A stretch of DNA of 64,000 nucleotides from Prevotella sp. Its GTDB lineage: Bacteria > Bacteroidota > Bacteroidia > Bacteroidales > Bacteroidaceae. The translations under genes and the position numbers were made by a program. The notes under the pieces are model-generated. The model ran no database searches and was not told the DNA's origin. It was given only the letters and a program-made list of their open reading frames with translations. Positions 8,954 to 37,325 of this stretch are shown in pieces; the first letter of the stretch is position 1; each line of letters begins with the position of its first letter. The stretch is taken from assembly GCA_017443345.1 (NCBI GenBank), contig JAFSNR010000018.1:49100-113099 (forward strand), given 5' to 3'.

Positions 8954-9042
8954 TGGTGCCGCGAGCGGGACTCGAACCCGCACGACCGTTTCGGGTCAAG
9001 GGATTTTAAGTCCCTCGTGTCTACCAATTCCACCATTGCGGC
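8954..9042 (-). tRNA. tRNA-Leu (anticodon UAA), CCA encoded
   Basis: The minus strand folds as a class II tRNA. It has an acceptor stem from GCCGCAA, a D arm with GGAATTGGTAGAC, an anticodon loop ACTTAAAAT giving UAA, a long variable arm, a T arm GCGGG-TTCGAGT-CCCGC, discriminator A and an encoded CCA at 8954-8956. One acceptor pair (position 6-67) reads A-C, a mismatch that is tolerated in some tRNAs. Confidence 0.95.
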
Positions 9043-9078
9043 GCCCGATATGCTCGAGCTTTACGGCTTTTGCGAGTG

Positions 9079-9109
9079 CAAAGGTAGCAAGTTTTCTCCG
9101 AATAGCCAA
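9079..9109 (-). promoter_or_regulatory. promoter of tRNA-Leu
   Basis: On the minus strand TTG (9109-9107), a 20-nt spacer and TACCTTTG (9086-9079) match the Bacteroidota sigma-70 pattern. The box lies about 37 nt upstream of the mature tRNA 5' end. Confidence 0.75.
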
Positions 9110-9161
9110 ACTTTTTACACATTATTTAATAATATAATAAGCAAATTACGAAACATTGTTG

Positions 9162-9169
9162 TATCTTTG
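9162..9169 (+). promoter_or_regulatory. candidate -7 box reading into array A
   Basis: TATCTTTG followed by GCA is a good Bacteroidota -7 element facing right, 43 bp before the tandem array at 9212. No clear TTG lies at -33. If active, it would transcribe the array. It diverges from the tRNA-Leu promoter. Confidence 0.45.
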
Positions 9170-9211
9170 CAGCCAAAACAGGACAAATGCAGAAAGTAGA
9201 ACCCATGAGTT

Positions 9212-9321
9212 ACGAGCCGTAAGCTGAAGACCAGCCGTTGGGAAGCTGACTGCCAGCCGTAGCCGACCTCACCATCCTCGATGACGTCAGAAAACGATTA
9301 GGGTGACGAGAATGCAATAAT
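9212..9321 (+). repeat. array A: five 22-bp units
   Basis: Units start at 9212, 9234, 9256, 9278 and 9300, in strict 22-bp register. They open with words such as ACGAGCCGTAAGCTG, GCCGTTGGGAAGCTG and GCCGTAGCCGACCTC. Positions 9236-9320 match 12484-12568 of array B with about 5 mismatches in 85. The stretch from the tRNA (9043) to the ATPase gene (9432) otherwise holds promoters and an A-rich leader with repeated AGAATAAAAG at 9384-9425, and I see no coding sequence in it. Confidence 0.8.
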
Positions 9322-9340
9322 AAGAATTTGTGCAAAAAGT

Positions 9341-9371
9341 TTGGAGATTTAGAGATTAGTTTGTATCTTTG
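9341..9371 (+). promoter_or_regulatory. promoter of the AAA ATPase gene
   Basis: TTG at 9341-9343, a 20-nt spacer and TATCTTTG at 9364-9371. It gives a leader of about 55 nt made of A-rich AGAATAAAAG repeats. Confidence 0.75.
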
Positions 9372-9431
9372 CAGCAGTTCAAAGAATAAAAGAGAATAAA
9401 AAAGAATAAAAGAGAATAAAAGAAGATAAAG

Positions 9432-10544
9432 ATGGATAAAAAGGAAGATATCTATCGTCTGTTTCAACCCACTTTCGGTAACCGTCCTGAGAAATACCTC
9501 GGTCGAGATGGTGTGATTCAGCAGTTCATCGCAGGATTAAAGGAACCAGTCGGGTCGCGCAATCGTTGTACGCTGTTCCTTGGGCAACGTGGTATGGGCA
9601 AGACAGCTCTGTTGCTTGAGTTGAGCGATCATGCACAAAAGGCCGGGTATGTAGTGGCCCGTGTGACAGCTCACGAGGGGATGCCTCAAGCCATCATCGA
9701 GCAGTTTCAACTCAATGGCTCTAAGTTCTTCGACAACGATAAGCGGAAACTAACGGGCGTGACTGCAGGTGCAATGGGATTTTCGTTCGGTCTTACCTTT
9801 TCGGAGGCTGCAGAGCGCCAGTATGGTTTCCGTTCGAAGATGTCATTGTTGTGCGATAAATTGGCTGAGAAAGGCAAAGGGGCACTGATTCTGATTGACG
9901 AAGTGCGCACATCGGTTGCCATGCGAGAAGTGGCATCGGCGTATCAGGAACTGGTCGGCGACCAGAAGAATGTTGCGATTGCGATGGCAGGACTGCCGCA
10001 TGCTGTTTCTTCTGTATTGAATGACAGCGTGCTGACCTTCTTGAATCGTGCTGTCAAGGTTGAACTGGGAACGATTTCAACTCAACTGATAAGAGCATAC
10101 TACGAAAAGGCATTTCGGTTGGTCGGGATAACGATTTCTGATGAACTTCTTGACCGGGCTGCGCTGTCAACACGAGGCTTCCCTTATCTGATGCAGTTAA
10201 TCGGTTATTATGTGATTCAATATACGCCAGAGGAAGGTACGGTAACAGATGATGTTATGAACAAATCAGAGAAAGCGGCGATGAAGGATATGGAAGATAA
10301 TGTGTTTAAGCCGATCCTGACCCCTTTGTCTGACAACGACATAGTATTTCTGCGGGCAATGGCTCGCTGCAACGGTACTGTGACTACATCTAAGTTACAG
10401 GCGAAATTGGGTAAGAGAGGCCCCGCTATTCAACCATATCGCAAGCGCCTGATTGAAGCAGGGGTCATTGAAGCGCCCAGACGCGGTGAACTACTGTTTG
10501 CTGTGCCTTATTTGGCCGATTTCCTACTATCTGAAAGAGAATAG
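9432..10544 (+). CDS. orphan AAA ATPase, Orc1/Cdc6-like organisation
   Basis: A 370-residue soluble ATPase with Walker A GQRGMGKT (51-58), Walker B ALILIDEV (151-158) and a likely sensor segment VAIAMAGLP. The C-terminal 70-80 residues look like a winged helix (DNDIVFLRAMARCNGTVTTS...), ending in LADFL. This order is shared by archaeal-type Orc1/Cdc6-like and STAND-like ATPases found alone in many Bacteroidota genomes. No partner nuclease or toxin sits beside it. It lies between array A and the first VapE element, within a segment bounded by 85-bp direct repeats, so it may travel with them. Cellular function is unknown; DNA binding through the winged helix is plausible. Confidence 0.75.
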   Translation: MDKKEDIYRLFQPTFGNRPEKYLGRDGVIQQFIAGLKEPVGSRNRCTLFLGQRGMGKTALLLELSDHAQKAGYVVARVTAHEGMPQAIIEQFQLNGSKFFDNDKRKLTGVTAGAMGFSFGLTFSEAAERQYGFRSKMSLLCDKLAEKGKGALILIDEVRTSVAMREVASAYQELVGDQKNVAIAMAGLPHAVSSVLNDSVLTFLNRAVKVELGTISTQLIRAYYEKAFRLVGITISDELLDRAALSTRGFPYLMQLIGYYVIQYTPEEGTVTDDVMNKSEKAAMKDMEDNVFKPILTPLSDNDIVFLRAMARCNGTVTTSKLQAKLGKRGPAIQPYRKRLIEAGVIEAPRRGELLFAVPYLADFLLSERE

Positions 10545-10594
10545 AAGTATTTCCAATTGAGGACGATTGGACACGAGCTGTTTTATGTAAATCG

Positions 10595-10652
10595 ACTCAT
10601 GGGGGGCCAGTGGGTTAGCTCATTGTACCTGTCCTCATGAGTTATGAGTCAC
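10595..10652. repeat. dispersed ACTCATG hairpin element (copy at left of VapE element 1)
   Basis: Contains ACTCATGGGG at 10595, CCTGTCCTCATGAGTT around 10628-10643 and a second ATGAGTC. It is a diverged, compound copy of the hairpin family seen intact at 17261-17291, and lies directly outside the left inverted repeat of element 1. Confidence 0.5.
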
Positions 10653-10656
10653 TTTT

Positions 10657-10777
10657 GGCCATCCTCCCCCTAAATTATAGGAAAAGCCTTTAAATACTAG
10701 GGATTCGGATTGGGGGAGACCTCGCCATCCTCCCCCTATCCTCCCCCGTAGCTCCCCCTCAGGGTTCCCCTTTTCAG
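10657..10777 (+). repeat. element 1 left inverted repeat
   Basis: The order is: forward CCTCCCCC word, core GGAAAAGCCTTTAAATAC, reverse GGGGGAG word, then three forward words (CCTCCCCC, CCTCCCCC, CTCCCCCT). The reverse complement of 12203-12320 aligns along the whole length. Confidence 0.85.
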
Positions 10778-11988
10778 GCCACCTTCAAGGGAACGACTCG
10801 ATAGAACTTGACATGACCTCTTTCCTTGTACTCGAAGCCAAGTTCACCCATCGCTAATCCTACATCCACCTTCGACTTCATGCTGTTGGGGATGGAAGGA
10901 TACTCGTTGCGAATCACCTCCAGAATCTGGGTGCTCTTCATGCTTTTCCAACTCTCGCCCTCGAGAGGCTTGCGGAAACAGACGGGAATGGCTTCCGACA
11001 CATCCTTCTGCTCCATGTATTCGAGGTTAAGCTCCTGAATACGAGCCACTTCAGCATTGTTAAACCAATAGGGCGCCTTCAACTCACAGATCTCATAGAC
11101 CACCTGTGCATAGAGCTGCTCGTAATTGATGTCACCAGCATTGTCGATGTACATCCCCTCGGGAATCCTCAGGCAGATGTATCGACGACTGCCAGTTGCA
11201 TCCGTCAGCGGATGGGGATTGTTTGTGGTCGCCACAAACGAGGCATAGCGAGGACGATCCTCCTGGGCACAGCCATAGATGGGACGTCCATTCACCTTGC
11301 TCTTCGAGAGCGTCTGCTTCAGACTCGCATGCTGACTGGGACGGATGGCCTCGAGTTCATCAAGGTTTACCAGCAGATTGTTCGTCAGCGCCATGTCCTT
11401 GTCGAACTTGTTCGACAGGTTCAGATGGTCGAGATAATACTGGTGCAGACTCGGTGGCAGTAGTCGACGGAGGAAGGTCGTCTTGCCACAACCCTGAGCG
11501 CCAATAAGCGTAGGCACACACTCGTTGCCATGAAGCGTGTCCATCTGAAGCCAGTGAGCCACAGCCGAACGTAGCCAGATGGTCAGGTAGTTGAGCTGCT
11601 CCGTGCTGATGCCAGGCAGACGGCTGAAGAGCTGGGCCACATGGTTCTGCCCATCCCATTTCGGCAGTCCGCGAAGCATGTCGCCGATGGGGTCAAAGTA
11701 GGCAATCTCCTCTGAGTGGATATACTCCACGATGTCCGTCTTCGGACTGCCCTTCTCGCAGATCTGCTCGCGCTTCGCACGGATGATGATACTGTTCAAC
11801 GCCTCCTGTGTCAGCGGACGATAGACGGGCACCTCGTCCTCCGATTCAGGTTTCGTTGCAAATTCAACCTTTCCGTTGAGAATGTTTCGACGGAAAAGGT
11901 AACTCTCATTGAGAAACTGGTGAACCACCAGCGTCTCCTGCTGTGATGCTCCTTGAGCCTCAGCAGCAATTGCTAATGCTTTCTTCAA
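10774..11988 (-). CDS. VapE-like P-loop ATPase, copy 1
   Basis: A 404-residue protein aligned over its length with the copy at 20945-22216. Walker A GAQGCGKT is at 163-170, a Walker B-like LVNLDELEAI at about 206-215, and FVATTNN near 251-257 would be sensor 1. This is the virulence-associated E/SF3-helicase-like P-loop family common in phages and islands. The last ~70 residues look like a small DNA-binding domain, as in the Bacteroidota DUF3874 proteins (from memory). The frame has no ATG: the start aligned with copy 2 is TTG at 11988, so translation may be weak or the start may be decaying. It stands alone between inverted repeats. A replication or DNA-remodelling role is inferred. Confidence 0.8.
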   Translation of the reverse strand: MKKALAIAAEAQGASQQETLVVHQFLNESYLFRRNILNGKVEFATKPESEDEVPVYRPLTQEALNSIIIRAKREQICEKGSPKTDIVEYIHSEEIAYFDPIGDMLRGLPKWDGQNHVAQLFSRLPGISTEQLNYLTIWLRSAVAHWLQMDTLHGNECVPTLIGAQGCGKTTFLRRLLPPSLHQYYLDHLNLSNKFDKDMALTNNLLVNLDELEAIRPSQHASLKQTLSKSKVNGRPIYGCAQEDRPRYASFVATTNNPHPLTDATGSRRYICLRIPEGMYIDNAGDINYEQLYAQVVYEICELKAPYWFNNAEVARIQELNLEYMEQKDVSEAIPVCFRKPLEGESWKSMKSTQILEVIRNEYPSIPNSMKSKVDVGLAMGELGFEYKERGHVKFYRVVPLKVA

Positions 11989-12063
11989 TTCTTTAATTGT
12001 ACAAATGTTAATACTAATGTTTCAGCTAGTAGTGCATTTTCATAGCACTGTGCTTTCGAGGTG

Positions 12064-12094
12064 CAAAGATACAAAAAAAAATTGAGGTTTACAA
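12064..12094 (-). promoter_or_regulatory. promoter of vapE copy 1 (conserved block)
   Basis: On the minus strand TTG (12094-12092), a 20-nt spacer with an A/T run and TATCTTTG (12071-12064). About 65 bp around it, including AATAATTGAGATAAAAC, is nearly identical to the region before vapE copy 2, whereas the rest of the upstream regions differ. Confidence 0.8.
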
Positions 12095-12202
12095 GTTTTA
12101 TCTCAATTATTGGCCAAAAACCGTCCAAATTAACACTTAAATCGCATAAAAATAATAAGGTGTGGATGAAAATGAAGAATTGTGTTTGTTTTGGGGGTGA
12201 AT

Positions 12203-12320
12203 CTGAAGGGGGACCCTGAGGGGGAGCTATGGGGGAGGATTGGTGGAGGATAGCGAGGACTCCCCCTCTCCGAATCCACAGTGTTTAAAGGCCTTTCCAA
12301 AGATGTAGGGGGAGGATGCC
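12203..12320 (-). repeat. element 1 right inverted repeat
   Basis: Inverted partner of 10657-10777. With the bases just before it, its plus strand has four runs of five G (12193-12197, 12208-12212, 12220-12224, 12231-12235), a good G-quadruplex candidate. Confidence 0.85.
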
Positions 12321-12349
12321 CATGAATAACCCGTTCTTATCAAAAAATA

Positions 12350-12569
12350 AGCGCCGCTTACTGATCAATACTCGTCGCTTATTGCTAAAAAATATTCCCA
12401 CGCTGGGACTGAAACATTCCCACCTTGGGAATAATCGACGAGCCGTAAGCTCGTCTACTGTCGTAGCCGACCTGATCGATGATCGTTGGGAAGCTGATCG
12501 CCAGTCGTAGCCGACCTCACCATCCTCGAAGACGTCAGAAAACGATTAGGATGACGAGAATGCAATAAC
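12350..12569. repeat. array B: about ten ~22-bp units of differing palindromes
   Basis: Units start at 12394, 12416, 12438, 12460, 12482, 12504, 12526 and 12548 (exact 22-bp steps), with two slightly off-register units before 12394. Many units hold a short inverted repeat: ATTCCCA-CCT-TGGGAAT (12416), GACGAGC-CGTAA-GCTCGTC, GTCG-TAGC-CGAC (12460 and again 12504), TCCCA-CGC-TGGGA. It lies just outside the right arm of VapE element 1. There are no spacers of CRISPR type and no cas genes. Confidence 0.8.
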
Positions 12570-12573
12570 ATCG

Positions 12574-12599
12574 ACTCATGGGGACAGGTCCGGTGGGTT
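12574..12599. repeat. dispersed ACTCATG hairpin element
   Basis: ACTCATGGGGACAGGTCC followed by GGTGGGTT. Its loop GGACAGGTCC matches the intact copy at 17261-17291. It closes the outer edge of array B. Confidence 0.6.
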
Positions 12600-12926
12600 C
12601 ACTCACGAAGTTCACTCCGAACACAAGCGGAATCCAATCTTAACACTCACGAAATCCGTTATTAACTAGAAAAATCAAAATTCTTAACACGCAACGCAGC
12701 GAACCTTAGCACAGAGGAAAAAAACACTTAACTAGAAAATTAAATTCTCTTAACTAAAAATTCGAAAACACTTAACTAAAAAAATTTTTTTTCTTAACTG
12801 AAAATTTTGTATCGGTAAAGAATTGCCTTAAAGGATGTTAAGAGAAGAACAAAAACCAGTAATGGCTATTTATTTACTCAAGTAAGGAAAATATCTAACG
12901 AAAGCAACTTAAGACTATTTTCTCAA
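12600..12926. repeat. AT-rich non-coding stretch with repeated CTTAACTA words
   Basis: No gene is seen. CTTAACTA(A/G)AAA recurs at about 12727, 12750, 12770 and 12793. About 38 bp (TCTCTTAACTAAAAATTC onward) match 37330-37368 with two differences, so this is a dispersed intergenic repeat. The function is not evident. Confidence 0.6.
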
Positions 12927-13026
12927 GTTGAAATTGGTCATTCCTACAATGATGCCGATACTGTTGCTGGCTCCCAGGACACAGGCAGTGCGCTTTTCGA
13001 TTTCCGTATCGATCACGTTGTCCTCA
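12927..13026 (-). pseudogene. fragment of the 13927-14517 lipoprotein gene
   Basis: About 100 bp is homologous to 14134-14233: the translated fragment keeps EDNVIDTEIEKR and CVLGASNSIGIIVGMTNFN, matching the intact gene closely. It has no start, no signal peptide and no zinc-ribbon end. Homology stops at TCCTCATGAGTT, half of the dispersed ACTCATG hairpin, so the break coincides with that repeat. The toxin-antitoxin pair lies between fragment and parent. Confidence 0.8.
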
Positions 13027-13215
13027 TGAGTTATGATGCCGAAGTGGATACCGTCGACTAAGCATTTTGCTAAGACAAAATGATTAAGAAATCGTATCGT
13101 TTTGCTTATTATTTCCACTTATAATCCACAAATACTTATTATTTTTGTTTTTTTCTTTTATTATTGGAAGTTTTTTCTTATATTTGCAACGTGTTTATTA
13201 CAAAAAAGAACAAAT

Positions 13216-13530
13216 ATGAATGCGATATCACTTAACAACCTGTGGAGCTACCTGCAAGGACTTTCGCTTTCGGCAAGCAACCAACGCTGGCTGGCCGAAC
13301 GCCTTATAGAAGCGTCAACAGCAGCGAAGGGCAAGTCTGCCAGTACGACTCTTAGCCGTCGTGCCCACAAACATAAAAAGGCATTAAGTGACGAAGAGCT
13401 TGCTAAGTGTCTTGCTCAGTATGCACCGCTTACCGACGCTGACTTCCCAGAGGTGAGTAAAGAGGAGTATGCTTCCTTTGCCAAGGAACATAGTGGCCAA
13501 ATCACCAAAGGTTTGGAGAAATGGCTGTAG
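13216..13530 (+). CDS. probable antitoxin of a MazF/PemK-type module
   Basis: A 104-residue protein starting at ATG 13216; the frame extends upstream into AT-rich promoter sequence, so the later Met is preferred. It is helical and charged (LWSYLQGLSLSASNQRWLAERLIE near the N-terminus) with a basic middle (SRRAHKHKK). The C-terminus carries an acidic segment as expected for toxin binding. I recognise no named antitoxin fold. The assignment rests on size, position directly before a PemK/MazF-like gene and a 10-nt overlap with it, the usual antitoxin-toxin order. A box reading TATTTGC at 13181-13187 may serve as the promoter. Autoregulation is typical of such pairs but is not shown here. Confidence 0.6.
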   Translation: MNAISLNNLWSYLQGLSLSASNQRWLAERLIEASTAAKGKSASTTLSRRAHKHKKALSDEELAKCLAQYAPLTDADFPEVSKEEYASFAKEHSGQITKGLEKWL

Positions 13531-13886
13531 CACAAGTTCATCAGCGTGAGATAGTGGAAGTGCCATTTACACTTCCTGACGGACAGATACTCCCGCATCC
13601 AGCCCTTGTTCTTTCGTGTGACGACTTGCAGAATGTGGAGCCAGGCATGTTCTATGCTGTTCTTATATCATCAAAGAACAATTATCCACAGTTGACCATA
13701 CCCATTCAGAGCGAATGGTTGTCAACGCCATTGACAAAAGCATCCTATTTCGTAACCCACATAGTGAGCATGTTCAATGTGGAAGATGTCATTGCCCATC
13801 ACAATTGCTTCCTGCGCCAACCCTTTTTTGATGATGTAGTTGATTGCATCATTGCCAATATTGTTGATGGGGATTGGGAGAAATAG
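13521..13886 (+). CDS. MazF/PemK-like toxin
   Basis: A 121-residue protein. The N-terminal strand IVEVPFTLPDGQ, then HPALVLSCDD, and the later FYAVLISSKN follow the pattern of the PemK/MazF ribonuclease fold (a beta-barrel with a conserved R/HPALVLS strand). The usual basic residue just before PALVL is His here. The start ATG lies inside the last codons of the antitoxin gene (10-nt overlap). Family members cut mRNA at short sequences when the antitoxin is lost; the target is unknown here. The pair is inserted between a lipoprotein gene and a fragment of that same gene. Confidence 0.65.
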   Translation: MAVAQVHQREIVEVPFTLPDGQILPHPALVLSCDDLQNVEPGMFYAVLISSKNNYPQLTIPIQSEWLSTPLTKASYFVTHIVSMFNVEDVIAHHNCFLRQPFFDDVVDCIIANIVDGDWEK

Positions 13887-13926
13887 TAAGCTCGTCGCCA
13901 GTCATCCCCATGAGTTATATTCCTTT

Positions 13927-14517
13927 TCAGTTCCAGGCGTGGAGAATAGTGCCGTCGAAGGAACAGAAGTAGCGCAGGAGGGCGTCACCAGCCTCACCGT
14001 CGATGATGTTGCCTGTCTCCAGATCGTAAATGCGCTTGCATTTGGGACAGGCTACTTGCTGGCGATTGCCAGTCCAGTCCATCGCCTGCAGACTGGCACA
14101 ATTGGGACAGCTGCGATCGTAAGCCCAAAGCCCATTGAAGTTGGTCATACCCACAATGATACCGATGCTGTTGCTGGCACCCAGGATACAGGCAGCGCGC
14201 TTCTCGATCTCCGTACTGATCACGTTGTCCTCACGAGGCGTCTTGCCGTCGTTGCTGGTTACGTAAATATGACGGAAGGAGGAAGATCCGTCGCCTGAAC
14301 TCGTCACGTAGACATAAGCTCCAGCACTCCTCGCTGCCGCAAACAGCAGACTGGTAGGGTGCTGGTCATAATAGAACACAAGCTGACAGTTGTATTTTCT
14401 GCTGACAGGCGCCTCTGCCTGACAAGAAGTGAAAAGTGAAAAGTGAAAAGTGAAAAGAAGTGACACCATTAGGAGCCACCCCTTTCTCACCACAAAAATA
14501 TATTGTTTCCTATTCAC
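13927..14517 (-). CDS. uncharacterised lipoprotein with C-terminal zinc-ribbon-like motif
   Basis: Two starts are possible: GTG at 14517, which shares a base with the argH stop and gives a signal peptide with basic residues, or ATG at 14469, whose peptide starts MVSLLFTFHF. Both reach the lipobox LFTSC. The middle region holds an ILGASNSIGIIVGMTNFN stretch. The C-terminus has CPNC and CPKC pairs 16-18 residues apart, followed by KRIYDLETG, resembling a zinc ribbon or Rieske-like ligand set. The signal peptide is encoded by a run of AAGTGAAAAGTG repeats (14425-14462), a simple repeat found elsewhere in the window. No function is recognised. Confidence 0.7.
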   Translation of the reverse strand: MNRKQYIFVVRKGWLLMVSLLFTFHFSLFTSCQAEAPVSRKYNCQLVFYYDQHPTSLLFAAARSAGAYVYVTSSGDGSSSFRHIYVTSNDGKTPREDNVISTEIEKRAACILGASNSIGIIVGMTNFNGLWAYDRSCPNCASLQAMDWTGNRQQVACPKCKRIYDLETGNIIDGEAGDALLRYFCSFDGTILHAWN

Positions 14518-15851
14518 TATTCACTAATCAAAGCTTGTTCTGCTGTCGTCATTCGCTCAAAGTGGAATCCGTCGAGCGTCTGCTGCATCAGGGCCTGTAT
14601 CTGGTCGTTACAGAGGTTGCCGATAGAGCCTTCGTGCGTATGGTGGATGTGCTTGTCGGCCTTGAAATTGCCTGCCTCGATGTCGAGGCCCACCTTCTTG
14701 TAGGCATCGCGGAAAGGCATGCCGTTGGCTGCCAGGCGGTTAACCTCTTCAACGCTGAACATCGGGTCGTACATCGGATTGTCGAGGATGTGCTCGTTTA
14801 CCTCTATCTTGTTGATGATATAGGCTGCCATCTGCAGACAGTCCTTCAGCTCGCCAAAGGCTGGCAAAAAGACTTCCTTGATGATCTGCAGGTCGCGGAA
14901 GTAGCCCACGGGCAGGTTGTTCATGATGAGCGTCACCTGCTGAGGCAGACTCTGTAGTTTGTTACACTTGGCACGGATGAGCTCGAAGACATCTGGATTC
15001 TTCTTGTGGGGCATGATGCTCGAACCCGTCGTACACTCCTTGGGCAGCTTCACAAACGAGAAGTTCTGCGAGTTGAACAGACAGGCGTCGAAGGCCATCT
15101 TGGCGACGGTGCCAGCGATGGTGGCGATGGCGAAGCTTACGTTGCGCTCCATCTTGCCTCGTCCCATCTGGGCATACACCACGTTATAGTCCATCGAGTC
15201 GAAGCCGAGCAGCTCTGTAGTCATCGTGCGGTTCAGGGGGAAGCTTGAGCCATAGCCAGCAGCCGATCCGAGAGGATTGCGGTTGGTCATCTTGTAGGCC
15301 GCCTGCAAGAAGAGCATATCGTCGCAGAGACTCTCCGCATAGGCACCAAACCAAAGTCCGAAGCTCGACGGCATCGCGATCTGCAGGTGCGTATAGCCAG
15401 GCATCAGCACGTCCTTATACTGGTTGCTCTTCTGGATGAGCTCGTCGAAGAGGCTCTTCACCTCGTCGGCAATCTCCTTCAGCTCGTGACGTGTAAAGAG
15501 CTTGAGGTCCACGAGCACCTGGTCGTTGCGCGAACGGCCTGAATGAATCTTCTTGCCCATGTCGCCCAGTTTGCGAGTGAGCAACATCTCTACCTGTGAG
15601 TGCACATCCTCCACATCGTCCTCGATCACGAACTCACCACGCTCTGCCAGATGGTAGATGTTCTTCAACTCAGCCAGCAGCTGTGTTAGTTCATCTTTCT
15701 CGAGCAGTCCGATGCTCTCCAGCATGGTGATATGGGCCATCGAACCCAACACGTCGTATTTCGCCAGATAGAGATCCATCTCGCGGTCCCGTCCCACCGT
15801 AAACCGCTCAATCTCCTTATTGATCTCAAAGTTCTTCTCCCAGAGTTTCAT
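14517..15851 (-). CDS. argH: argininosuccinate lyase
   Basis: A 444-residue member of the fumarase/aspartase superfamily that splits argininosuccinate into arginine and fumarate, the last step of arginine synthesis. SGRSRNDQ (104-111) and the family signature GSSIMPHKKNPD (276-287), with the flexible loop catalytic Ser, are intact. Length is normal for Bacteroidota ArgH. The gene overlaps the SRPBCC gene upstream by 4 nt and touches the lipoprotein gene downstream, so the three are probably co-transcribed. No other arg genes are adjacent. Confidence 0.96.
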   Translation of the reverse strand: MKLWEKNFEINKEIERFTVGRDREMDLYLAKYDVLGSMAHITMLESIGLLEKDELTQLLAELKNIYHLAERGEFVIEDDVEDVHSQVEMLLTRKLGDMGKKIHSGRSRNDQVLVDLKLFTRHELKEIADEVKSLFDELIQKSNQYKDVLMPGYTHLQIAMPSSFGLWFGAYAESLCDDMLFLQAAYKMTNRNPLGSAAGYGSSFPLNRTMTTELLGFDSMDYNVVYAQMGRGKMERNVSFAIATIAGTVAKMAFDACLFNSQNFSFVKLPKECTTGSSIMPHKKNPDVFELIRAKCNKLQSLPQQVTLIMNNLPVGYFRDLQIIKEVFLPAFGELKDCLQMAAYIINKIEVNEHILDNPMYDPMFSVEEVNRLAANGMPFRDAYKKVGLDIEAGNFKADKHIHHTHEGSIGNLCNDQIQALMQQTLDGFHFERMTTAEQALISE

Positions 15852-16279
15852 ACATAATGCACTTGTGCCAGGGCATCGGCGATCTTCTCAACGCCGTCCT
15901 GCAGCGGTTTCTCCACCATACTCTTGATAAACGGGTTCAACTCAGCCTTCACCGTCACCTTCATCTTCGCGTTATTCTCGTCGACGGGCAACACCTGAAC
16001 CCACACGTTGAAAGGAACGGGCGACTGCACCGTCTCGAACTTCACACACTTAGGCTCCTCACGGTCGCAGATGCGCAGCTTCAACTCACCCACAGGGTCG
16101 ACGTGCAGGCTCACTGTGTCCTGATCGAAACTGAAGTCCTGTACCTTATCCTCAGGGATGCGGTCGCGCACCTTCTCCAGATTACTTAGGTCACTGATAT
16201 TGTTATAGACAGCCTGCTGAGAGTAAGGCACGAACTTCACGCTACTCTCGAATTTCGATTCACTTCCAAATAGTCCCAT
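15848..16279 (-). CDS. SRPBCC/polyketide-cyclase-like protein
   Basis: A 143-residue soluble protein with an SRPBCC (START-like) pattern: an N-terminal strand and helix with SQQAVYNNISDLSNLEKV, several beta strands, and a long C-terminal helix (MVEKPLQDGVEKIADALAQ). Close relatives occur next to argH or pyrE in Bacteroidota genomes (from memory). The ligand is unknown. It overlaps argH by 4 nt and shares its transcript. No signal peptide, so cytoplasmic. Confidence 0.75.
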   Translation of the reverse strand: MGLFGSESKFESSVKFVPYSQQAVYNNISDLSNLEKVRDRIPEDKVQDFSFDQDTVSLHVDPVGELKLRICDREEPKCVKFETVQSPVPFNVWVQVLPVDENNAKMKVTVKAELNPFIKSMVEKPLQDGVEKIADALAQVHYV

Positions 16280-16379
16280 ACATATTATTAATTATAGACA
16301 TAGTAATATATTAACAATAATTTATCAGTGTTTCCGAAATAATATGTTATTCTGTTACTCTGTCTTAAGATTACTCTGT

Positions 16380-17009
16380 CTATTGTTTCCACGTCTCGGG
16401 GCTCTTGCGCCATTCGGCGAGCACGGCCTTGTCCTCCTCCTTGATATAGCCAGTCTTCGCAGCCTCCTCGATCACGGCCTCGTAGTTGCTCAGCGTGATC
16501 AGCTTCACGCCAGCCTCTTTGAAAGCCTCCTCAGCCACAGGGAATCCATAAGAAAACGAAGCTACCATGCCAATCACCTCCACACCATAGTCGCGCAGTG
16601 CCTGCACAGCCTTCAGCGACGAGCCGCCAGTAGAGATCAAATCCTCCACTACGACCACCTTCGCTCCCTGCTTGATCTCACCTTCCACCTGGTTACCCAT
16701 ACCGTGGTCCTTCGGCTTCGGACGCACATAGCTGTAGGGCAGTCCCAGCTCCTCAGCCACCAGCGCACCCTGGGCGATGGCACCTGTAGCCACACCAGCC
16801 ACAGCCTCTGCCTCAGGGAAGTTCTCCTGAATGGCGTGACAGAGTTCCAGCTTCACAAACGAGCGCAGACGTGGGAACGACAACGTCTTACGGTTATCAG
16901 TATAGATAGGCGATTTCCAGCCCGAAGCCCATGTAAATGGCTCATTCGGCTGCAACTTGATGGCCTGAATCTCCATCAGTTTCTGAGCAAATTGATTCTT
17001 GATTTCCAT
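16380..17009 (-). CDS. pyrE: orotate phosphoribosyltransferase
   Basis: A 209-residue enzyme that makes orotidine 5'-phosphate from orotate and PRPP in pyrimidine synthesis. The PRPP-binding motif VVVVEDLISTGGSS (118-131) is complete, and the flexible-loop region YVRPKPKDHGMG carries the expected Arg/Lys residues. Start ATG 17009 follows a strong promoter by about 20 nt. The gene is followed by the SRPBCC-argH group after a 100-bp AT-rich gap. Length and motifs are standard. Confidence 0.96.
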   Translation of the reverse strand: MEIKNQFAQKLMEIQAIKLQPNEPFTWASGWKSPIYTDNRKTLSFPRLRSFVKLELCHAIQENFPEAEAVAGVATGAIAQGALVAEELGLPYSYVRPKPKDHGMGNQVEGEIKQGAKVVVVEDLISTGGSSLKAVQALRDYGVEVIGMVASFSYGFPVAEEAFKEAGVKLITLSNYEAVIEEAAKTGYIKEEDKAVLAEWRKSPETWKQ

Positions 17010-17030
17010 ATTCCTTAATTAATTTGGGTG

Positions 17031-17061
17031 CAAAGATACGAATAAGCGAGCGAAATACCAA
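17031..17061 (-). promoter_or_regulatory. promoter of pyrE
   Basis: On the minus strand TTG (17061-17059), a 20-nt spacer and TATCTTTG (17038-17031). The spacer TTTCGCTCGCTTATTCG is nearly the same as in the argS promoter at 33286. Confidence 0.8.
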
Positions 17062-17092
17062 ATTTTATTTGGATATTTCCCTAAAATCCTCT

Positions 17093-17236
17093 ACCTTTGC
17101 AGTTATCGATGATGTAACAACCAGTGGCTCTACATTAAACGAAGTCCTGCGCACGCTTCGTATTCTCAACGAAGATAATAATATTTCCATCTTTAGCCTC
17201 ATTGGGCGTAAAGACTTAATGGCGGAATCGGTGTAA
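17093..17236 (+). pseudogene. remnant of a phosphoribosyltransferase gene
   Basis: This 48-codon stretch keeps a PRPP-binding motif, VIDDVTTSGSTLNEVLR, and the following strand FSLIGRKD, then stops. The rest of a ComF-like or amidophosphoribosyltransferase-like protein is missing and the frame upstream is not protein-like. It is unrelated to neighbouring pyrE in sequence detail. I treat it as a decayed 3' end. Confidence 0.6.
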
Positions 17237-17260
17237 TCACAGTTCCCTATTCATATAAAG

Positions 17261-17291
17261 TCAACTCACGAGAACAGGTCCCGTGAGTTGA
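17261..17291. repeat. intact dispersed hairpin element
   Basis: TCAACTCACG, an 11-nt loop AGAACAGGTCC, then CGTGAGTTGA: a perfect 10-bp stem. It lies 20 bp past the stop of the minus-strand lipoprotein gene (17311), where it could act as terminator, and after the phosphoribosyltransferase remnant. Related copies lie near 10595, 12574 and 20171. Confidence 0.75.
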
Positions 17292-17310
17292 TACGCTTTA
17301 CCTCTATGTA

Positions 17311-17715
17311 TTACTGTTTAGTATATTTCTGGCCGTCGAGTGTCAGAGTATTACCACTAACAGAGTACTTATGATCGTATCCGTCAATGATTAGAACTCC
17401 CCCTGCAGCAACGTAACTAAAATCATTTTCTTCTGTATAAGATGCTGCCAGATCGTTATTGCCATTGTTCACCCAAACCTCTTTAAAATGTCCTTTTCCG
17501 TTACTATAAAAGGTATAGGTTCTTTCATCACTGTAACCAGTTCCAGTCTCCTTGTAGGCCCATGTGCCCACGAGATCACTATTTGAACTGATTCCACTGT
17601 CGTCATCACCATCTATAGCGTATTCTGCCGTGCCGTTTAAAAGACAGGAGGAAACTGTTATGCCCAGCATCGCAGTTATCAGGATGCTCAGCATCATATA
17701 GATCATTCTTTTCAT
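17311..17715 (-). CDS. small lipoprotein, lipocalin-like
   Basis: A 134-residue lipoprotein with lipobox VSSC after a hydrophobic signal. The mature part opens with an acidic linker (DGDDDSGISSNSD) followed by LVGTWAYKETGTGYSDERTYTFYSNGKGHF. This GTW...YTF..NG pattern is typical of lipocalin-like domains in Bacteroidota lipoproteins. It is predicted to be a beta-barrel of unknown ligand. It is the last of three minus-strand envelope genes (17311-19659) with short gaps, probably one operon. Confidence 0.65.
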   Translation of the reverse strand: MKRMIYMMLSILITAMLGITVSSCLLNGTAEYAIDGDDDSGISSNSDLVGTWAYKETGTGYSDERTYTFYSNGKGHFKEVWVNNGNNDLAASYTEENDFSYVAAGGVLIIDGYDHKYSVSGNTLTLDGQKYTKQ

Positions 17716-17737
17716 ATCAGTCTAATTAGTCGAGTCA

Positions 17738-18355
17738 TTAAAAACAATAAGCTAATCCAAAGTGGAATACTGGCTTGTCAGTATATGCCTTAGTGAAATG
17801 TAGTTCTTTAAACCTGAGCTGCGTACCTAAAGTTACAAGTATTTTATTGGCGCGGATGACAATACGAGGATCTGCTACAATGTCAACCTTGCCTTCTGTC
17901 TTGTCTCCGTCAGTCTTGTAAATCCTGTAAGAGGGGCCTAAGGCAAATGTCAGCATACCCATGCTACTGCCTGTCCTCCACAGGCCAAGCGAATAATTAC
18001 CGCTTAGGTTAAAATCCTGTAGTGCCTTGAACTCCACGTCGAAAGCCCAGTTGAAGTCGCCTCCGAAACCATTCCACTTCAAATAGCCTGCGTTTAGGCC
18101 AAACACATTGACCGACTTGTTATTGTACCACGAAAGACCAGCATAGAAGAAAGAGTCGTTATAGTCGTAATCGTCTTCATAGATATTGCTAAGACCAGGA
18201 CGGTGATAATCATCGTTCCAAGACCAATTTACATCAGAGTTCAGATCGTCTGCACTACCTACTGGTTTCCCGAAGTCATTTGAAATCACTACCTGGGCAT
18301 TTACATTTAAACCCAATGTTACAGCCAAGGCTGTCGAGATAATCAACTTTTTCAT
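17738..18355 (-). CDS. outer-membrane beta-barrel protein
   Basis: A 205-residue protein with a cleavable signal peptide (MKKLIISTALAVTLGLNVNAQ). The remainder has alternating aromatic and polar strands (FFYAGLSWYNN, FGLNAGYLKWNGF, FNWAFDVEFKALQ) and ends in FHFGLAYCF; the terminal Phe is the usual outer-membrane insertion signal. An eight-stranded porin-like barrel is likely. It lies between a lipocalin-like lipoprotein gene and a larger secreted protein gene. Confidence 0.7.
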   Translation of the reverse strand: MKKLIISTALAVTLGLNVNAQVVISNDFGKPVGSADDLNSDVNWSWNDDYHRPGLSNIYEDDYDYNDSFFYAGLSWYNNKSVNVFGLNAGYLKWNGFGGDFNWAFDVEFKALQDFNLSGNYSLGLWRTGSSMGMLTFALGPSYRIYKTDGDKTEGKVDIVADPRIVIRANKILVTLGTQLRFKELHFTKAYTDKPVFHFGLAYCF

Positions 18356-18369
18356 ATTTTTTATCGTTT

Positions 18370-19659: not shown

Positions 19660-19740
19660 TTCCAAAAAGTCTTTGTCCTTTCAGCAGCCCCAGAAATCAG
19701 GACGGATTAGTCAAACCAAAATTATTTGCTTAGTACATAA

Positions 19741-19839
19741 TATAAAAAGGTGTGGGTTGCTGTACCAGTTACTCGTCCCACGGTCTTGGCGTCTCGCATT
19801 GCCCATCCTTGTCGAAACGAGCAACGCAGAAGCCCACAC
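19741..19839 (-). ncRNA. candidate structured RNA with terminator-like end
   Basis: On the minus strand GTGTGGG (19839-19833) pairs with CCCACAC (19756-19750), and inside it GTTGCTCGT pairs with ACGAGTAAC, leaving a further stem-loop-forming core. A CTTTTTATA tail follows at 19749-19741. I cannot match it to tmRNA, RNase P or SRP RNA by their conserved motifs; a 6S-like RNA is possible but unproven. It may be a separate RNA of up to ~325 nt from the promoter at 20066 or a leader of the 19659 gene. Short open frames here look random. Confidence 0.45.
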
Positions 19840-20065
19840 TTGTATGTTAATGTCTCCATGTACCTTCCACTAAAGAAAGCTAATACATGGCATGCATTAT
19901 ACATACCCATGAGCATCTACAATTGCTTTGTTTTTGACAAGGGTTCAGAGTTTGCGAGACTTCAGACCGTCAAAGAACAAAGCGCCTTAGTAGACACTTT
20001 TTCATATATGTATCCCCACCTCTCCGCTTCTGCATTTCTGCATGAGTATTGATATGAAGACGGTG

Positions 20066-20096
20066 CAAAGATACATATTTATATGCAAATATCCAA
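20066..20096 (-). promoter_or_regulatory. promoter reading into the structured RNA and envelope operon
   Basis: On the minus strand TTG (20096-20094), a 20-nt spacer and TATCTTTG (20073-20066). The first gene start is ~400 nt downstream, an unusually long leader. Confidence 0.7.
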
Positions 20097-20170
20097 ACTT
20101 TATCAAAAAAAAATAAAAACTATCGTTACTTTTATATCAAGTTATACGAATCGGATACAAAGAGAGGCGT

Positions 20171-20200
20171 TTACTCATGGAGAATGGTCCCATAAGTTAA
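20171..20200. repeat. dispersed ACTCATG hairpin element
   Basis: TTACTCATGG, a 9-nt loop and CCATAAGTTA form an imperfect stem. It is followed at 20206-20217 by CATCTCATGAGATG. It marks the outer edge of array C. Confidence 0.55.
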
Positions 20201-20231
20201 TAGATCATCTCATGAGATGGCACTTGTTGAG

Positions 20232-20473
20232 AAATAAGTGCCGAGTATTGGGAGATAAGATGGGCTTATCGGAGAGGCGGCGAGGTCGGCTACGATCGAT
20301 GGTCAGGTCGGCTACGATTGATGATCAGGTCGGCTATGACTGGCGATCAGCTTACGGTAAGCAGGCTGCTTGCTACGACTAAGCAGTATTCTCGCATCAG
20401 GATTGCAGTATTCTCACTATGGGATTGCAGTATTCTCTTGTTTGGATTGCAGTATTCATTGATGAGAACAAAG
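20232..20473 (+). repeat. array C: eleven units in exact 22-bp register
   Basis: Units start at 20232 and every 22 bp to 20452. Neighbouring units resemble each other and the type changes along the array: AGGTCGGCTACGAT three times (20276, 20298, 20320; one substitution pair in the last), then CTTAC-G-GTAAG (20342), then GTATTCTC...GATTGCA three and a half times (20386-20473). GATAAG-ATGGG-CTTATC (20254) is a clear palindrome. The GTCGGCTACGA and AATAAG.G.CGAGTATTG words are shared with array B in inverted orientation. It adjoins the left arm of VapE element 2. Confidence 0.85.
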
Positions 20474-20474
20474 A

Positions 20475-20592
20475 AAATCCCTCATCTCTCCCATTTTCTC
20501 TGGAAACGCCTTTATATAAAGGGGAAAGAGCACGGGAGAGATGTTTTTAATCCCTCCCATATCTCTCCCGTCATCCCTCCCATAGACTCTCT
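20475..20592 (+). repeat. element 2 left inverted repeat
   Basis: Forward TCTCTCCC word, core GGAAACGCCTTTATATAAA, reverse GGGAGAGAT word, then three forward words (TCCCTCCCA, TCTCTCCCG, TCCCTCCCA). It is the inverted partner of 22215-22332, about 85% identical by eye. The arrangement is the same as in element 1 but the repeated word differs. Confidence 0.85.
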
Positions 20593-20652
20593 CGTCATCA
20601 TTTCTGGATATTTGATATTTTTCGTACAAAATGGCAGATGCTCATAAGAGCT

Positions 20653-20726
20653 GTTTTTGCTACTATACTATGAAAAAATTGCTGGATAGTTAGGAAAAAA
20701 GTTTTTGATAGTATAGTAGCAAAAAC
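20653..20726. repeat. 19-bp perfect inverted repeat upstream of vapE copy 2
   Basis: GTTTTTGCTACTATACTAT (20653-20671) and its exact reverse complement (20708-20726) are separated by 36 nt. It is long enough to form a stable hairpin in RNA or an operator pair in DNA. No equivalent is seen in element 1. Confidence 0.85.
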
Positions 20727-20819
20727 TGGGTCATAACACCTTTTTTGAAATGCACTTACAAAAATTGATGCGGAAAAGTGTTAATTTCTGCACTTTTTGG
20801 GGAATAATTGGGATAAAAC

Positions 20820-20850
20820 TTGTAAACCTCAAATTTTTTTTGTATCTTTG
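20820..20850 (+). promoter_or_regulatory. promoter of vapE copy 2 (conserved block)
   Basis: TTG at 20820-20822, a 20-nt spacer TAAACCTCAAATTTTTTTTG and TATCTTTG at 20843-20850, followed by CAC. It matches the copy 1 promoter almost base for base. Leader of about 90 nt. Confidence 0.85.
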
Positions 20851-20944
20851 CACTCTGAAAAGCACGCTGTGGAAAGCGCGCCCATATTACTACGAAGGAA
20901 AAGGCCCTAAGGAGTAAGTTAAACTTTTGATATTAGATATAAGA

Positions 20945-22216
20945 ATGGAGAAGAGTAATCTTTTGCCTGTAGAGACTCTAGGAGCCTCTCAGGAAGGAAC
21001 GCTTGTCATCGAGCAGTTCCTCATGGCGAACTACCGTTTCCGTCGAAACATCCTCAATGGGAAGGTGGAGTTTGCGGTTCTGCCAAAGGCTGACAATAAG
21101 GCTGAAGGCAACACTGTCGACAAGTTCGACAGTCTCTCGAGCGCCTCTGATGAGGCAGATTTGCAGTACCGTCCTCTGACGTCGGCAGCCCTCAACAGTA
21201 TCATCATTCGTGCCAAGCGCGAACAGATTCTGGAGAAGGGAAGTCCGAAGACGGAGATAACGGAGTATGTGGGGGCGGAAGAGATTCCTGAGCACAATCC
21301 TGTACAGGCGTTCTTCAAGGATCTGCCTGAGTGGGATGGTCAGAACCATGTGGCCAAAGTCTTCGGACGCATCCCTGGCATCACTTCTGAGCAGCTGAAC
21401 TATCTCACGATCTGGCTGCGATCCTCTGTGGCTCACTGGCTTCAGATGGATATGCTGCATGGAAACGAGTGTGTACCAACGTTCATTGGAGCACAGGGTT
21501 GTGGAAAGACCACTTTCGTGCGTCGACTGCTGCCTCTGAGTCTGCGTGAGTACTATCTCGACCACCTGAACCTGTCGAACAAGTTTGATAAGGAGATGGC
21601 TCTCACGAACAATCTCTTCGTCAATCTCGACGAGTTGGAGGCCATCCGTCCTTCCCAACAGTCTTCGCTGAAGCAGACTCTGTCCGTCAGCAAGGTGAAT
21701 GGGCGTCCTATCTTTGGACGAACTCAGGAGGATCGTCCTCGATTCGCATCGTTTGTGGCTACCACCAACAATCGTCACCCTTTGAAGGATGCGACTGGTA
21801 GCCGTCGATACATCTGCCTTCTGATCCCAGACGGGCAGTTGATTGACAATACTGGCGAGATCGACTACGGGCAGCTTTATGCGCAGGTGATCTATGAAGT
21901 GAAGGAACAGCATGCTCCGTATTGGTTTAACAACGACGAGGTGGCCCGTATTCAGCAGTTGAATCAGGACTTCATGGAGAAGAAAGACCTTGGCGAAATG
22001 TTCATTGCCTGTTTCCGTCAGCCAAACGAAGGTGAGGTCGTTAAGACGCTGAATTGTGGTCAGATGATTGACATCATGCAGAAAGACTATCCTACCCTTC
22101 AGAACACGGTTGGCAATAGGGTTAAGCTAGGCAAGGCTATTTCTGCTCTGGGTTTTGAACACAAAGAGCATTCCCACGTAGCCTATTACAAAGTGGTACC
22201 ACTGAGAGCTGCATGA
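20945..22216 (+). CDS. VapE-like P-loop ATPase, copy 2
   Basis: The start is ATG 20945 because the N-terminus then aligns residue for residue with copy 1 (GAS at 13-15 in both); an in-frame TTG lies 18 nt upstream. It has 423 residues, Walker A GAQGCGKT, LVNLDELEAI-type Walker B (FVNLDELEAI), and FVATTNN. Compared with copy 1 it has an acidic insert of about 20 residues after residue 50. The ATPase core is very similar and the C-terminal ~70 residues are more diverged, as expected if that part recognises different DNA. It stands alone inside the inverted repeats. Family relatives are primase/helicase-like proteins of phages and islands; the actual activity here is unknown. Confidence 0.82.
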   Translation: MEKSNLLPVETLGASQEGTLVIEQFLMANYRFRRNILNGKVEFAVLPKADNKAEGNTVDKFDSLSSASDEADLQYRPLTSAALNSIIIRAKREQILEKGSPKTEITEYVGAEEIPEHNPVQAFFKDLPEWDGQNHVAKVFGRIPGITSEQLNYLTIWLRSSVAHWLQMDMLHGNECVPTFIGAQGCGKTTFVRRLLPLSLREYYLDHLNLSNKFDKEMALTNNLFVNLDELEAIRPSQQSSLKQTLSVSKVNGRPIFGRTQEDRPRFASFVATTNNRHPLKDATGSRRYICLLIPDGQLIDNTGEIDYGQLYAQVIYEVKEQHAPYWFNNDEVARIQQLNQDFMEKKDLGEMFIACFRQPNEGEVVKTLNCGQMIDIMQKDYPTLQNTVGNRVKLGKAISALGFEHKEHSHVAYYKVVPLRAA

Positions 22217-22332
22217 GCCAGACGGGAGAGATGACGGGAGAGATTTGGGAGGGATCAGAAACATCCCTCCCGTGCTCTTTCCCCTTTGTATAAAGGCGTT
22301 TCCGGAGATTACGGGAGGGATGAGAGGATTTG
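22215..22332 (-). repeat. element 2 right inverted repeat
   Basis: Inverted partner of 20475-20592. The plus strand has four GGG runs at 22223-22255 (ACGGGAG, ACGGGAG, TTGGGAGGG), a weaker G-quadruplex candidate than in element 1. Confidence 0.85.
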
Positions 22333-22334
22333 CT

Positions 22335-23993
22335 TTATTTCTTCCTGTAGAATTTCTCGAGGGTGCGGTAGGCGTTTTCCTTTTCGGGGGAGATGACCTC
22401 AGCGGATTCTACGTCGATCTTCATGTAGGGGGCTTTGTTGACATTCGACTTGGTGATGGGGCTCCACTTGGGAAGGCCCTTGCCGTTGGGATTGCCCGTC
22501 TTGCAGAAGTTGACATAGTAGGAGAGGAAGAGTTTGGAGATGGCGTAGTCCTCCTCCTGCCAATCGTAGTAGACGTTGGTGTCGAGGGTTCCCATGGCGT
22601 ACTCGATATCGGCTGAGTGAACGGCTCCAGGAGCGATGGCGGGCTGCTGGGCCTCGGCCTTCTTCTCTTCTTCAGTCTTATCGCGGACGCCTCCTGCCAA
22701 GGCACCTGTCTTGTCGCCCATCTTAGCTGATACGCGTGGACGCGGGTGCATGTAATGATAGCGGTAGACGTGCTTGCCTGAGGTCTTGGCGTGGTAATCG
22801 CAGGCCTTCCAGGTGGGGAAGCCAGTGAAGAGGTCAGAGGCGAGGTCAAGGCCTTTCTGGCTCAGGACGTCGGCGTCTGTGGCGATGCCATAGGCATTGA
22901 AGATCTCGTCAGTCATACTGCCAAACACGGGCTTCATGGCGTTCTTGTAGTTATGGAGGGTGGGAGCCTGACCCTGAAGGGCCTGTGCGGGGTGACCTTC
23001 GAGGGAGTTCCAGCCTGCAAGCAGCGGCACGTGGGCCTGCTGGCCTTTCTCGAACACGGCATCGGGGCTCTCCTTCATGAAGTAGCCATCGAGGACGACG
23101 CTGGCCATGCCCTTGGGAGGTAGAAGCTTCTGGAGAGAGTCGGCATCGATTTCCCTGGCGTCAGCCAAACTTTCGATACCAGCCTGTTTGAGAAGCGCCA
23201 TACCCAGGGAATCTGCAACGTCCTGCGTCTGAGGCTTGTACGGCAGTACCTCGGCACCCGAGGAGAGCATAGCGCCTGCAATGAGATCCTTGGAGAGGGG
23301 CGAGCACATGAGGAGCGAGACGGAGAAGGAGCCTGCCGACTCTCCCACGATGGTGATGCGTTTAGGATCGCCACCAAAGGCGGCGATATTCTCTTTCACC
23401 CACTGGATGGCTGCCACCTGGTCGAGGAAGCCGTAGTTGCCGCTGGTTTTATGTTCGCCCTCTTTGGTGAGTTCTTGATGGGCGAAAAAACCGAAAATAC
23501 CCTCACGGTAGTTGGCCGTTACGCCAATGACGCCTTCCTTGGCGATGGCAGAGCCGTCGTAACGGGGCTCGCTACCAGAGCCGGCCATCAGTCCGCCACC
23601 ATTAAAATAGATGAGTACGGGCAGGGCATCGGTTGTGGTCTTGGCGGTAGTCCAGACATTGAGGTAGAGGCAGTCCTCGCTGCGGGCAGGGCCACGGAAA
23701 GACATGTCGCCGAAGATATTGGGCTGCATGGGGTCGTTACCAAACTGCTTGGCCTCGCGTATGCCTTCCCAGGGCAGGGGAGGAGTCGGCGCCTTCCAGC
23801 GGAGATCGCCTACAGGGGCCTGAGCGAAGGGAATGCCCAGGAATTTCTTCACGCCATTCTCTTCAAAGCCTTCAAGGATGCCATACTCGGTTTTAACCTG
23901 AAGGGAAACTTCTTGGCTCTTCTGTGTGCAAGCACTCAGGAGAACGAGACTGGCAAAGGCCAGCATTGCTAGTGTTCTGATCTTTTGAGTCAT
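22335..23993 (-). CDS. type B carboxylesterase/lipase family lipoprotein
   Basis: Start ATG 23993 opens a lipoprotein signal (MTQKIRTLAMLAFASLVLLSAC). The 552-residue protein has the para-nitrobenzyl esterase layout: GIPFAQAPVGDLRW near residue 53, SEDCLYLNVW near 105, the oxyanion NGGG (131-134) and GESAGS with nucleophile Ser219. The catalytic His region near the C-terminus (HYMHPRP at about 420-430) carries an added charged loop. The substrate is unknown; such surface or periplasmic esterases in gut Bacteroidota often release acyl or feruloyl groups. It converges on VapE element 2 with a 3-bp gap. A promoter with TATCTTTG lies at 24019-24026. Confidence 0.88.
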   Translation of the reverse strand: MTQKIRTLAMLAFASLVLLSACTQKSQEVSLQVKTEYGILEGFEENGVKKFLGIPFAQAPVGDLRWKAPTPPLPWEGIREAKQFGNDPMQPNIFGDMSFRGPARSEDCLYLNVWTTAKTTTDALPVLIYFNGGGLMAGSGSEPRYDGSAIAKEGVIGVTANYREGIFGFFAHQELTKEGEHKTSGNYGFLDQVAAIQWVKENIAAFGGDPKRITIVGESAGSFSVSLLMCSPLSKDLIAGAMLSSGAEVLPYKPQTQDVADSLGMALLKQAGIESLADAREIDADSLQKLLPPKGMASVVLDGYFMKESPDAVFEKGQQAHVPLLAGWNSLEGHPAQALQGQAPTLHNYKNAMKPVFGSMTDEIFNAYGIATDADVLSQKGLDLASDLFTGFPTWKACDYHAKTSGKHVYRYHYMHPRPRVSAKMGDKTGALAGGVRDKTEEEKKAEAQQPAIAPGAVHSADIEYAMGTLDTNVYYDWQEEDYAISKLFLSYYVNFCKTGNPNGKGLPKWSPITKSNVNKAPYMKIDVESAEVISPEKENAYRTLEKFYRKK

Positions 23994-24070
23994 GTTGATA
24001 TACGTTGATTTTGCGCCACAAAGATACGGACTTTCTGTCAAACAGCCAAAGAAAAGGGGAAAAATTTGTA

Positions 24071-37256: not shown

Positions 37257-37325
37257 TTATATCGGGCTATCCTTACTGAAATTTTTTACTACGCTATATT
37301 TACAGAATCTCTTAACTGGAAATCA

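Follow-up and report, generated by a model that had tools for sequence, protein, structure and literature searches.

A putative transposon-like replicon in Prevotella: a VapE-type helicase gene between two inverted iteron arms

In REP/RAYT systems, rayt genes are flanked by inverted REP sequences and encode a Y1 HUH transposase, and in other cases TnsC- or IstB-type ATPases assist transposases. The Rep module (PriRep1, SaPI5 Rep) of Staphylococcus aureus pathogenicity islands (SaPIs) and phage-inducible chromosomal islands (PICIs) is a ring helicase with a C-terminal DNA-binding domain that reads an iteron origin; the accessible part of one account has the SaPI iterons follow immediately after rep (PMC7581432). 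The same part describes the Cch2 helicase of the staphylococcal cassette SCCmec, whose C-terminal domain binds short direct repeats downstream of its gene, a putative origin within a large cassette with a primase pair, and it describes no terminal inverted arms there (PMC7581432). In Prevotella intermedia, the highly amplified 188-bp repeat PINSR lacks terminal inverted repeats according to the accessible part of its description (PMC4755523). Here we describe two units in a 64,000-nt stretch of Prevotella sp. (the window, in which all coordinates are counted), each with a single vapE gene between two inverted arms built of short iterons. Our sequence comparisons make it reasonably probable that each is a minimal transposon-like replicon, composed of an initiator helicase and two inverted iteron origins and lacking a transposase, integrase and primase.

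Both units sit in a 113-kb contig, surrounded by ordinary genes, and measure 1.7–1.9 kb overall. They consist of the following features:

10656..10772, plus strand: stop-side arm of element 1, with iterons at 10662, 10710 (minus), 10728, 10739, 10750 and 10762
10774..11988, minus strand: vapE of element 1, a 404-aa open reading frame (ORF) from TTG, encoding a lone VapE-like ring helicase with a C-terminal winged helix
12064..12071, minus strand: promoter-like −7 box TATCTTTG of element 1, from sequence inspection
12206..12322, minus strand: promoter-side arm of element 1, with iterons at 12306, 12258 (opposite), 12240, 12229, 12218 and 12206
20461..20581, plus strand: promoter-side arm of element 2, with iterons at 20484, 20532 (minus), 20550, 20561 and 20573
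20653..20726: palindrome of element 2 with 28-nt arms, between arm and promoter, from the repeat search
20843..20850, plus strand: promoter-like −7 box TATCTTTG of element 2, from sequence inspection
20927..22216, plus strand: vapE of element 2, a 429-aa ORF from TTG, or 423 aa from the ATG at 20945 (the modelled protein)
22224..22344, minus strand: stop-side arm of element 2, with iterons at 22311, 22263 (opposite), 22245, 22234 and 22222

In the repeat search, the arm pair of element 1 (117 nt) was 85% complementary and that of element 2 (121 nt) 83%. The stop codon of vapE lies 1 nt from the arm in element 1, and vapE ends 7 nt ahead of its arm in element 2. Within each unit, vapE has a promoter-like box of the form TAnnTTTG, which we take to be the −7 consensus. 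The original prediction, made from the letters of this stretch, had described one VapE gene and its promoter between inverted repeats, one of which abuts the stop codon, and a second unit of the same plan; all of this is confirmed, with coordinates that agree within a few bases for unit 1 and about 15 nt for unit 2. Every ORF of at least 80 aa between the arms is vapE or overlaps it in another frame, and the integrase and primase genes that usually accompany VapE are absent, as had also been noted. The window units likewise have no packaging or interference gene, which sets them apart from SaPIs and PICIs, as do the two inverted, origin-like arms that bound each unit and the gene-less derivatives dispersed in the genome.

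A family scan of the two vapE genes matched both to Pfam VapE-like_dom (1.3e-34 for element 1 and 6.3e-33 for element 2), to DUF5906 and, weakly and C-terminally, to DUF3874. PHROGs matches were phage DNA helicases and primases, NCBIfam gave no meaningful family and PADLOC none, and among the matches of the two genes in these four databases there was no transposase or nuclease family, nor any integrase family among the Pfam matches. Element 1 VapE carries the motifs GAQGCGKT (Walker A), LLVNLDE and TTNN.

The arm-flanked plan is common among relatives. Among 150 searched genomes of the genus, 103 gave VapE matches at E ≤ 1e-20, and the lone copies of ~400 aa formed a group apart from primase-helicases of ~700 aa. 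We assembled 73 loci (71 fetched copies with flanks and the two window copies) and scored 69 of them for inverted repeats, the rest having short flanks. An upstream/downstream repeat scored at least 40 in 54 of the 69 vapE loci compared to 1 of 120 other ORFs from the same loci, and at least 50 in 49 and 0, respectively, bearing out the expectation that related vapE genes would carry such repeats. Two of the 54 (L090 and L121) score through a repeat other than the arm, and the 15 loci below 40 include six with iterons (L079, L093, L095, L097, L099 and L100). The repeat starts −7 to +22 nt from the stop codon in 52 of 72 aligned loci. Named relatives carry the labels Prevotella, Prevotellaceae, Bacteroidaceae, Bacteroidales or Xylanibacter ruminicola and come from ruminants wherever titles name a source; across 247 genomes of the order (174 genera), no match at E ≤ 1e-60 was found besides the window's own genome.

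Each arm is laid out as a series of 11-bp iterons, with one in plus orientation, about 49 bp, one in minus orientation, 16–18 bp and three more in plus orientation separated by 11–12 bp, although some arms lack one or more of these sites. A palindromic AT core such as CCTTTATATAAAGG lies between the first two iterons. Iterons were analysed in 60 of the 73 loci (all except L087, L106–L108, L114, L116 and L118–L124) and vary widely: the consensus strings, adjusted by hand for register (notably L062, L067, L089 and W1), number 42 for the 60 elements. Both arms of one element as a rule share the iteron, even where their cores have diverged (L075, L078). The upstream arm sits between the promoter-like box and the start in L109–L111 and upstream of the box in the other loci inspected alongside; because the latter position prevails, we favour a role of the DNA itself. 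A transcribed RNA structure was considered and rejected, as no Rfam family was found in 9000–24000 (two rows fell below gathering scores), and two inverted protein sites would give the same signal as the covariation of the M1/M− stem.

The structure model of element 2 VapE (predicted local distance difference test score, 83.7) finds its best solved-structure match in PriRep1 with double-stranded DNA (7pds), which we take to be a SaPI-type initiator helicase, and the folds that rank highest against it are those of initiator and replicative helicases. The key ATPase residues K188, D229, E230 and N275 are invariant in 67 aligned proteins, an alignment made without L106 and L114–L118. Distances between iterons track protein distances in the last domain best over residues 398–417 (rho = 0.52, partial 0.37). 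The model puts residues 408 and 411 in the wing of the C-terminal winged helix, and the residues associated with iteron positions 2–3 in its helix 389–402. Among 58 proteins, His at residue 411 goes with C at iteron position 7 in 29 of 29 cases and Asn with A in 23 of 24, the other five having other residues. On a tree built without the C-terminal domain, residue 411 and position 7 each change 10 times; seven independent pairs fall on supported branches, where the two changed together in six to seven and were never opposed (p = 0.016). For residue 408 and position 8 there were three independent tree pairs, too few for a test.

The same association recurred when motifs were called automatically in another 53 loci (27 of 80 having been dropped as near-duplicates, and the seeds being biased towards A, C or T at position 7): His–C in 42 of 43 and Asn–A in 5 of 5, the remainder being four loci with another residue or a gap and one without a motif (L266). 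For residue 408 and position 8, these loci gave E–C in 28 of 35 and D–A in 11 of 11. Natural recombinants agree with such a code. L084 and L086, from one genome, are 97% identical over aa 1–377 and 65% in the last part, and their iterons differ; the chimeric L090 (G136) has a C-terminal part 91% like that of L103 and arms that differ in iteron, the downstream one carrying the L103 iteron, which its C-terminal domain fits, and the upstream one being L098-like. L090 also has a ~310-nt inverted repeat outside its arms. Recognition by VapE of its own arm iterons through the C-terminal winged helix is therefore well supported by co-variation, the form in which the SaPI/PICI property of an origin read by the Rep C-terminal domain appears here, and with it the link between the ATPase and its own flanking repeats in the original prediction.

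Because a protein–iteron match implies binding, the iterons might instead be operators through which VapE autoregulates or controls host genes, with gene-less pairs as regulatory sites or decoys and movement as rare recombination. Many promoter-side arms do precede the start by a few hundred bases, and in L204 (1062–1379) an in-frame vapE deletion leaves, between two arms, a 106-aa ORF in which just an N-terminal piece is joined to the DNA-binding domain. We nevertheless judge this explanation improbable, since most units have a second complete arm at the stop codon, where an operator is not needed, the arm of L109–L111 lies between promoter and start, many gene-less units have both arms in inverted order and the ATPase residues are conserved.

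Arms also occur in the absence of vapE. A covariance model built from the arms found all eight arms of the four vapE copies in the window's own genome, as well as arm pairs without vapE at C185, C52 and C43 and, weakly (E about 0.5), C123; arms at C69 and C1 were paired by eye. By eye, C52 and C43 carry the element 2 iteron and remnants of the element 2 leader, and so look like internal deletions; the palindrome at 20653..20726 recurs in both, again by eye. At E ≤ 0.001, the model detected arms in 15 of 40 genomes, comprising all 13 that have a lone vapE (E under 1e-90) and 2 of the 27 that lack one (Fisher 9e-9). Repeats without vapE, which the original prediction had named as grounds for refuting it, do therefore occur, but they often form paired gene-less units, and because their presence is tied to lone vapE they look like non-autonomous derivatives rather than independent repeats. 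Arm matches, vapE units included, numbered 35 in G035, 28 in G008 and 22 in G007. In motif matching with 89 of 107 arm matches, from 60 chosen regions, the motif of an own-genome VapE was the best match in 43 of 81 arms that lie outside vapE units in genomes whose VapE motifs are known, compared to 3.0 expected, with 19 of 23 in G035, 9 of 10 in G008 and 8 of 8 in G037. Short gene-less units with the ends of an autonomous element, as in miniature inverted-repeat transposable elements (MITEs), are seen at C52 and C43 and in G035, G008 and G037, but in G025 none of 10 arms matches an own-genome motif. One arm pair (L223, 786–2297) encloses an AbiEii-type toxin gene and a DUF6922 ORF in place of vapE, indicating that arms can carry cargo.

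In G008, other copies of one gene-less unit are 90–95% identical and stand at several sites, two of them (C8 and C26) ending near the arms. This similarity bears on the idea that the units derive from phage satellites or integrative elements as degenerate replication modules, now inactive and fixed in the chromosome, whose arms persist as old origins. The fold is the same as that of PriRep1, and one own-genome copy (C196) is broken into separate frames, but we regard this idea as very improbable given the gene-less copies, the invariant ATPase residues, an internal stop in just one (G130) among the lone copies listed, the continued co-change of specificity residue and iteron, and viral relatives of only 24–33% identity (14 loci in one viral scan with two peptide patterns).

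As to mobility, we compared 12 pairs of vapE copies for where homology ends. It was lost at the arms on both sides in two pairs from different genomes (L079/L082 and L059/L060) and at the arm on one side in two pairs each from one genome (L084/L086 and L061/L062). The comparison for empty sites that had been suggested found the L079 locus empty in two other genomes: its orthologous flanks are separated by 274 bp in G136 and by 652 bp in G006, whereas the corresponding distances where the locus is occupied are 1994 and 2383 bp, differences close to the 1736-bp element, and G136 has other copies elsewhere. These observations support a discrete one-gene element. The original prediction is thus supported in part: its element concept holds, and a self-contained unit whose ATPase serves replication, amplification or targeted movement is a putative reading. 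A second candidate, beside element 2, was rejected: 15 relatives have the neighbouring esterase without element homology beside it, but their other neighbour differs, so the esterase locus is not a clean empty site.

With MITEs and autonomous insertion sequences or transposons the units share their terminal inverted arms, derivatives by internal deletion, a high copy number and an intergenic location, and dispersed copies are equally typical of transposons. The units could accordingly be members of an ordinary family of DNA transposons whose ends are cut by an unlinked transposase, with VapE as an end-binding ATPase or regulator in an accessory role, as would suit two window genes without a nuclease family match. 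We consider this unlikely, although less so than the operator and degenerate-module ideas. The sole protein, without a transposase match in either window gene, has the fold of initiator and replicative helicases, and the ends are element-specific iteron arrays. By eye, no target-site duplication was seen in 30 gene-less units (one flank cut), whose ends are uncertain by about 10–25 nt. A Y1_Tnp match was absent from 6 of 15 arm-bearing draft genomes (the own genome, G008, G020, G027, G032 and G035), the arm-rich G035 and G008 among them, other transposase families being unsearched. Y1/RAYT-type mobilisation found no support for the same reason, despite a likeness to REP/RAYT, in which a single gene also lies between inverted hairpin repeats and many repeats without the gene occur elsewhere; the gene here encodes a VapE helicase.

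In the minimal replicon that we favour, VapE would assemble on each arm by its winged helix, with wing residues 408 and 411 reading iteron positions 8 and 7 and residues of helix 389–402 reading positions 2–3. Once bound, it would fire the origin by melting the AT core and unwinding, and host enzymes would copy the unit. Transposition would follow through a step that needs a host or other factor and places copies at new intergenic sites, and gene-less, MITE-like arm pairs might be bound and multiplied in trans, a helicase-driven form of spread.

Several findings weigh against this explanation. Homology continues past at least one arm in 8 of the 12 copy pairs, which lowers our confidence slightly: L109/L110 and probably L070/L071 each represent one locus shared by two species, and in L074/L077, L065/L080, L059/L115, L095/L097, L090/L098 and L090/L103 the common sequence extends beyond the arms by up to some hundreds of bases. 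With the G008 gene-less copies C19 and C2, which share about 290 nt outside the left arm, these pairs indicate that the moving unit is not always arm-bounded. The arm plan is absent from six divergent copies (L119–L124), among which L119, L120 and L122–L124 score below 40 and have no iterons. G027 and G032 have arms but no lone vapE at E under 1e-90, although G027 holds a 438-aa frame of 35% identity. Only 43 of the 81 arms fit an own-genome motif, with none in G025, G033 (0 of 5) or G014 (0 of 4) and few in G020 (2 of 6) and G007 (5 of 15). Selection for differing motifs within a genome, as from incompatibility between copies, was rejected, since 2 of 33 copy pairs had motifs identical or with at most one change, compared to 2.4 expected. 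Finally, the units contain no nuclease or transposase that would account for insertion, and no target-site duplication was seen.

We rate the element as new in kind, because it misses a defining feature of each known class tested (the integrase of PICIs, the transposase of transposons and the Y1 enzyme of REP/RAYT). We know of no family in which a mobile unit encodes an initiator helicase and no other protein, and the accessible parts of the open-access literature on VapE, iterons, terminal inverted repeats, MITEs and Prevotella repeats contained no description of this element. More tentatively, and with doubts that outweigh our confidence, the units may represent a class of transposable elements that owe their mobility to a replication-initiator helicase instead of a transposase: the helicase would fire the two inverted iteron origins at the ends, host repair would insert the copied unit, and copies without the gene would multiply in trans according to a readable protein–DNA specificity code. 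A mobile unit with an initiator helicase as its only protein would link satellite replication modules and transposons and account for many repeated intergenic sequences in rumen-type Prevotella. The pairing of two wing residues with two bases, in dozens of natural pairs, would be a rare naturally evolving protein–DNA code, and the element is a candidate genetic tool for Prevotella.

Further observations concern arm-like sequences and the surroundings of the units. In the own genome, L167 (C147:84716) is a solitary hairpin with the outer and inverted iteron only, and L174 and L178 (C69 and C1) are gene-less units with the iteron ATGCCTACATA, containing GAGAATTC-type palindromes; this iteron is absent from all four lone VapE copies of that genome. 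A TTTCCTGATTTGGGTTGACT-like word, possibly a target or a neighbouring repeat, recurs in several genomes just outside the arms of L205, L209, L224, L232 and L234. At G031:C105:1781-1903, close to a further VapE copy, there is a piece of ~123 bp resembling the 3' end of the esterase that neighbours element 2. In the window, a direct repeat of 85 nt (94% identical; 9236-9320 and 12484-12568) encloses an AAA ATPase gene (9432-10544) and element 1, and another of 114 nt (84% identical) is found at 12928-13041 and 14135-14248. A two-gene pair at 13102-13886, the second gene being PemK/MazF-like, is preceded by a 22-bp array. Arrays that look intergenic and have a period of 22 bp, each with its own sequence, occur at 20383-20457, 20283-20350, 12721-12806, 37306-37366 and 37661-37705. 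By eye, similar 22-bp arrays adjoin VapE units elsewhere (L065, L069, L080, L088 and L091).
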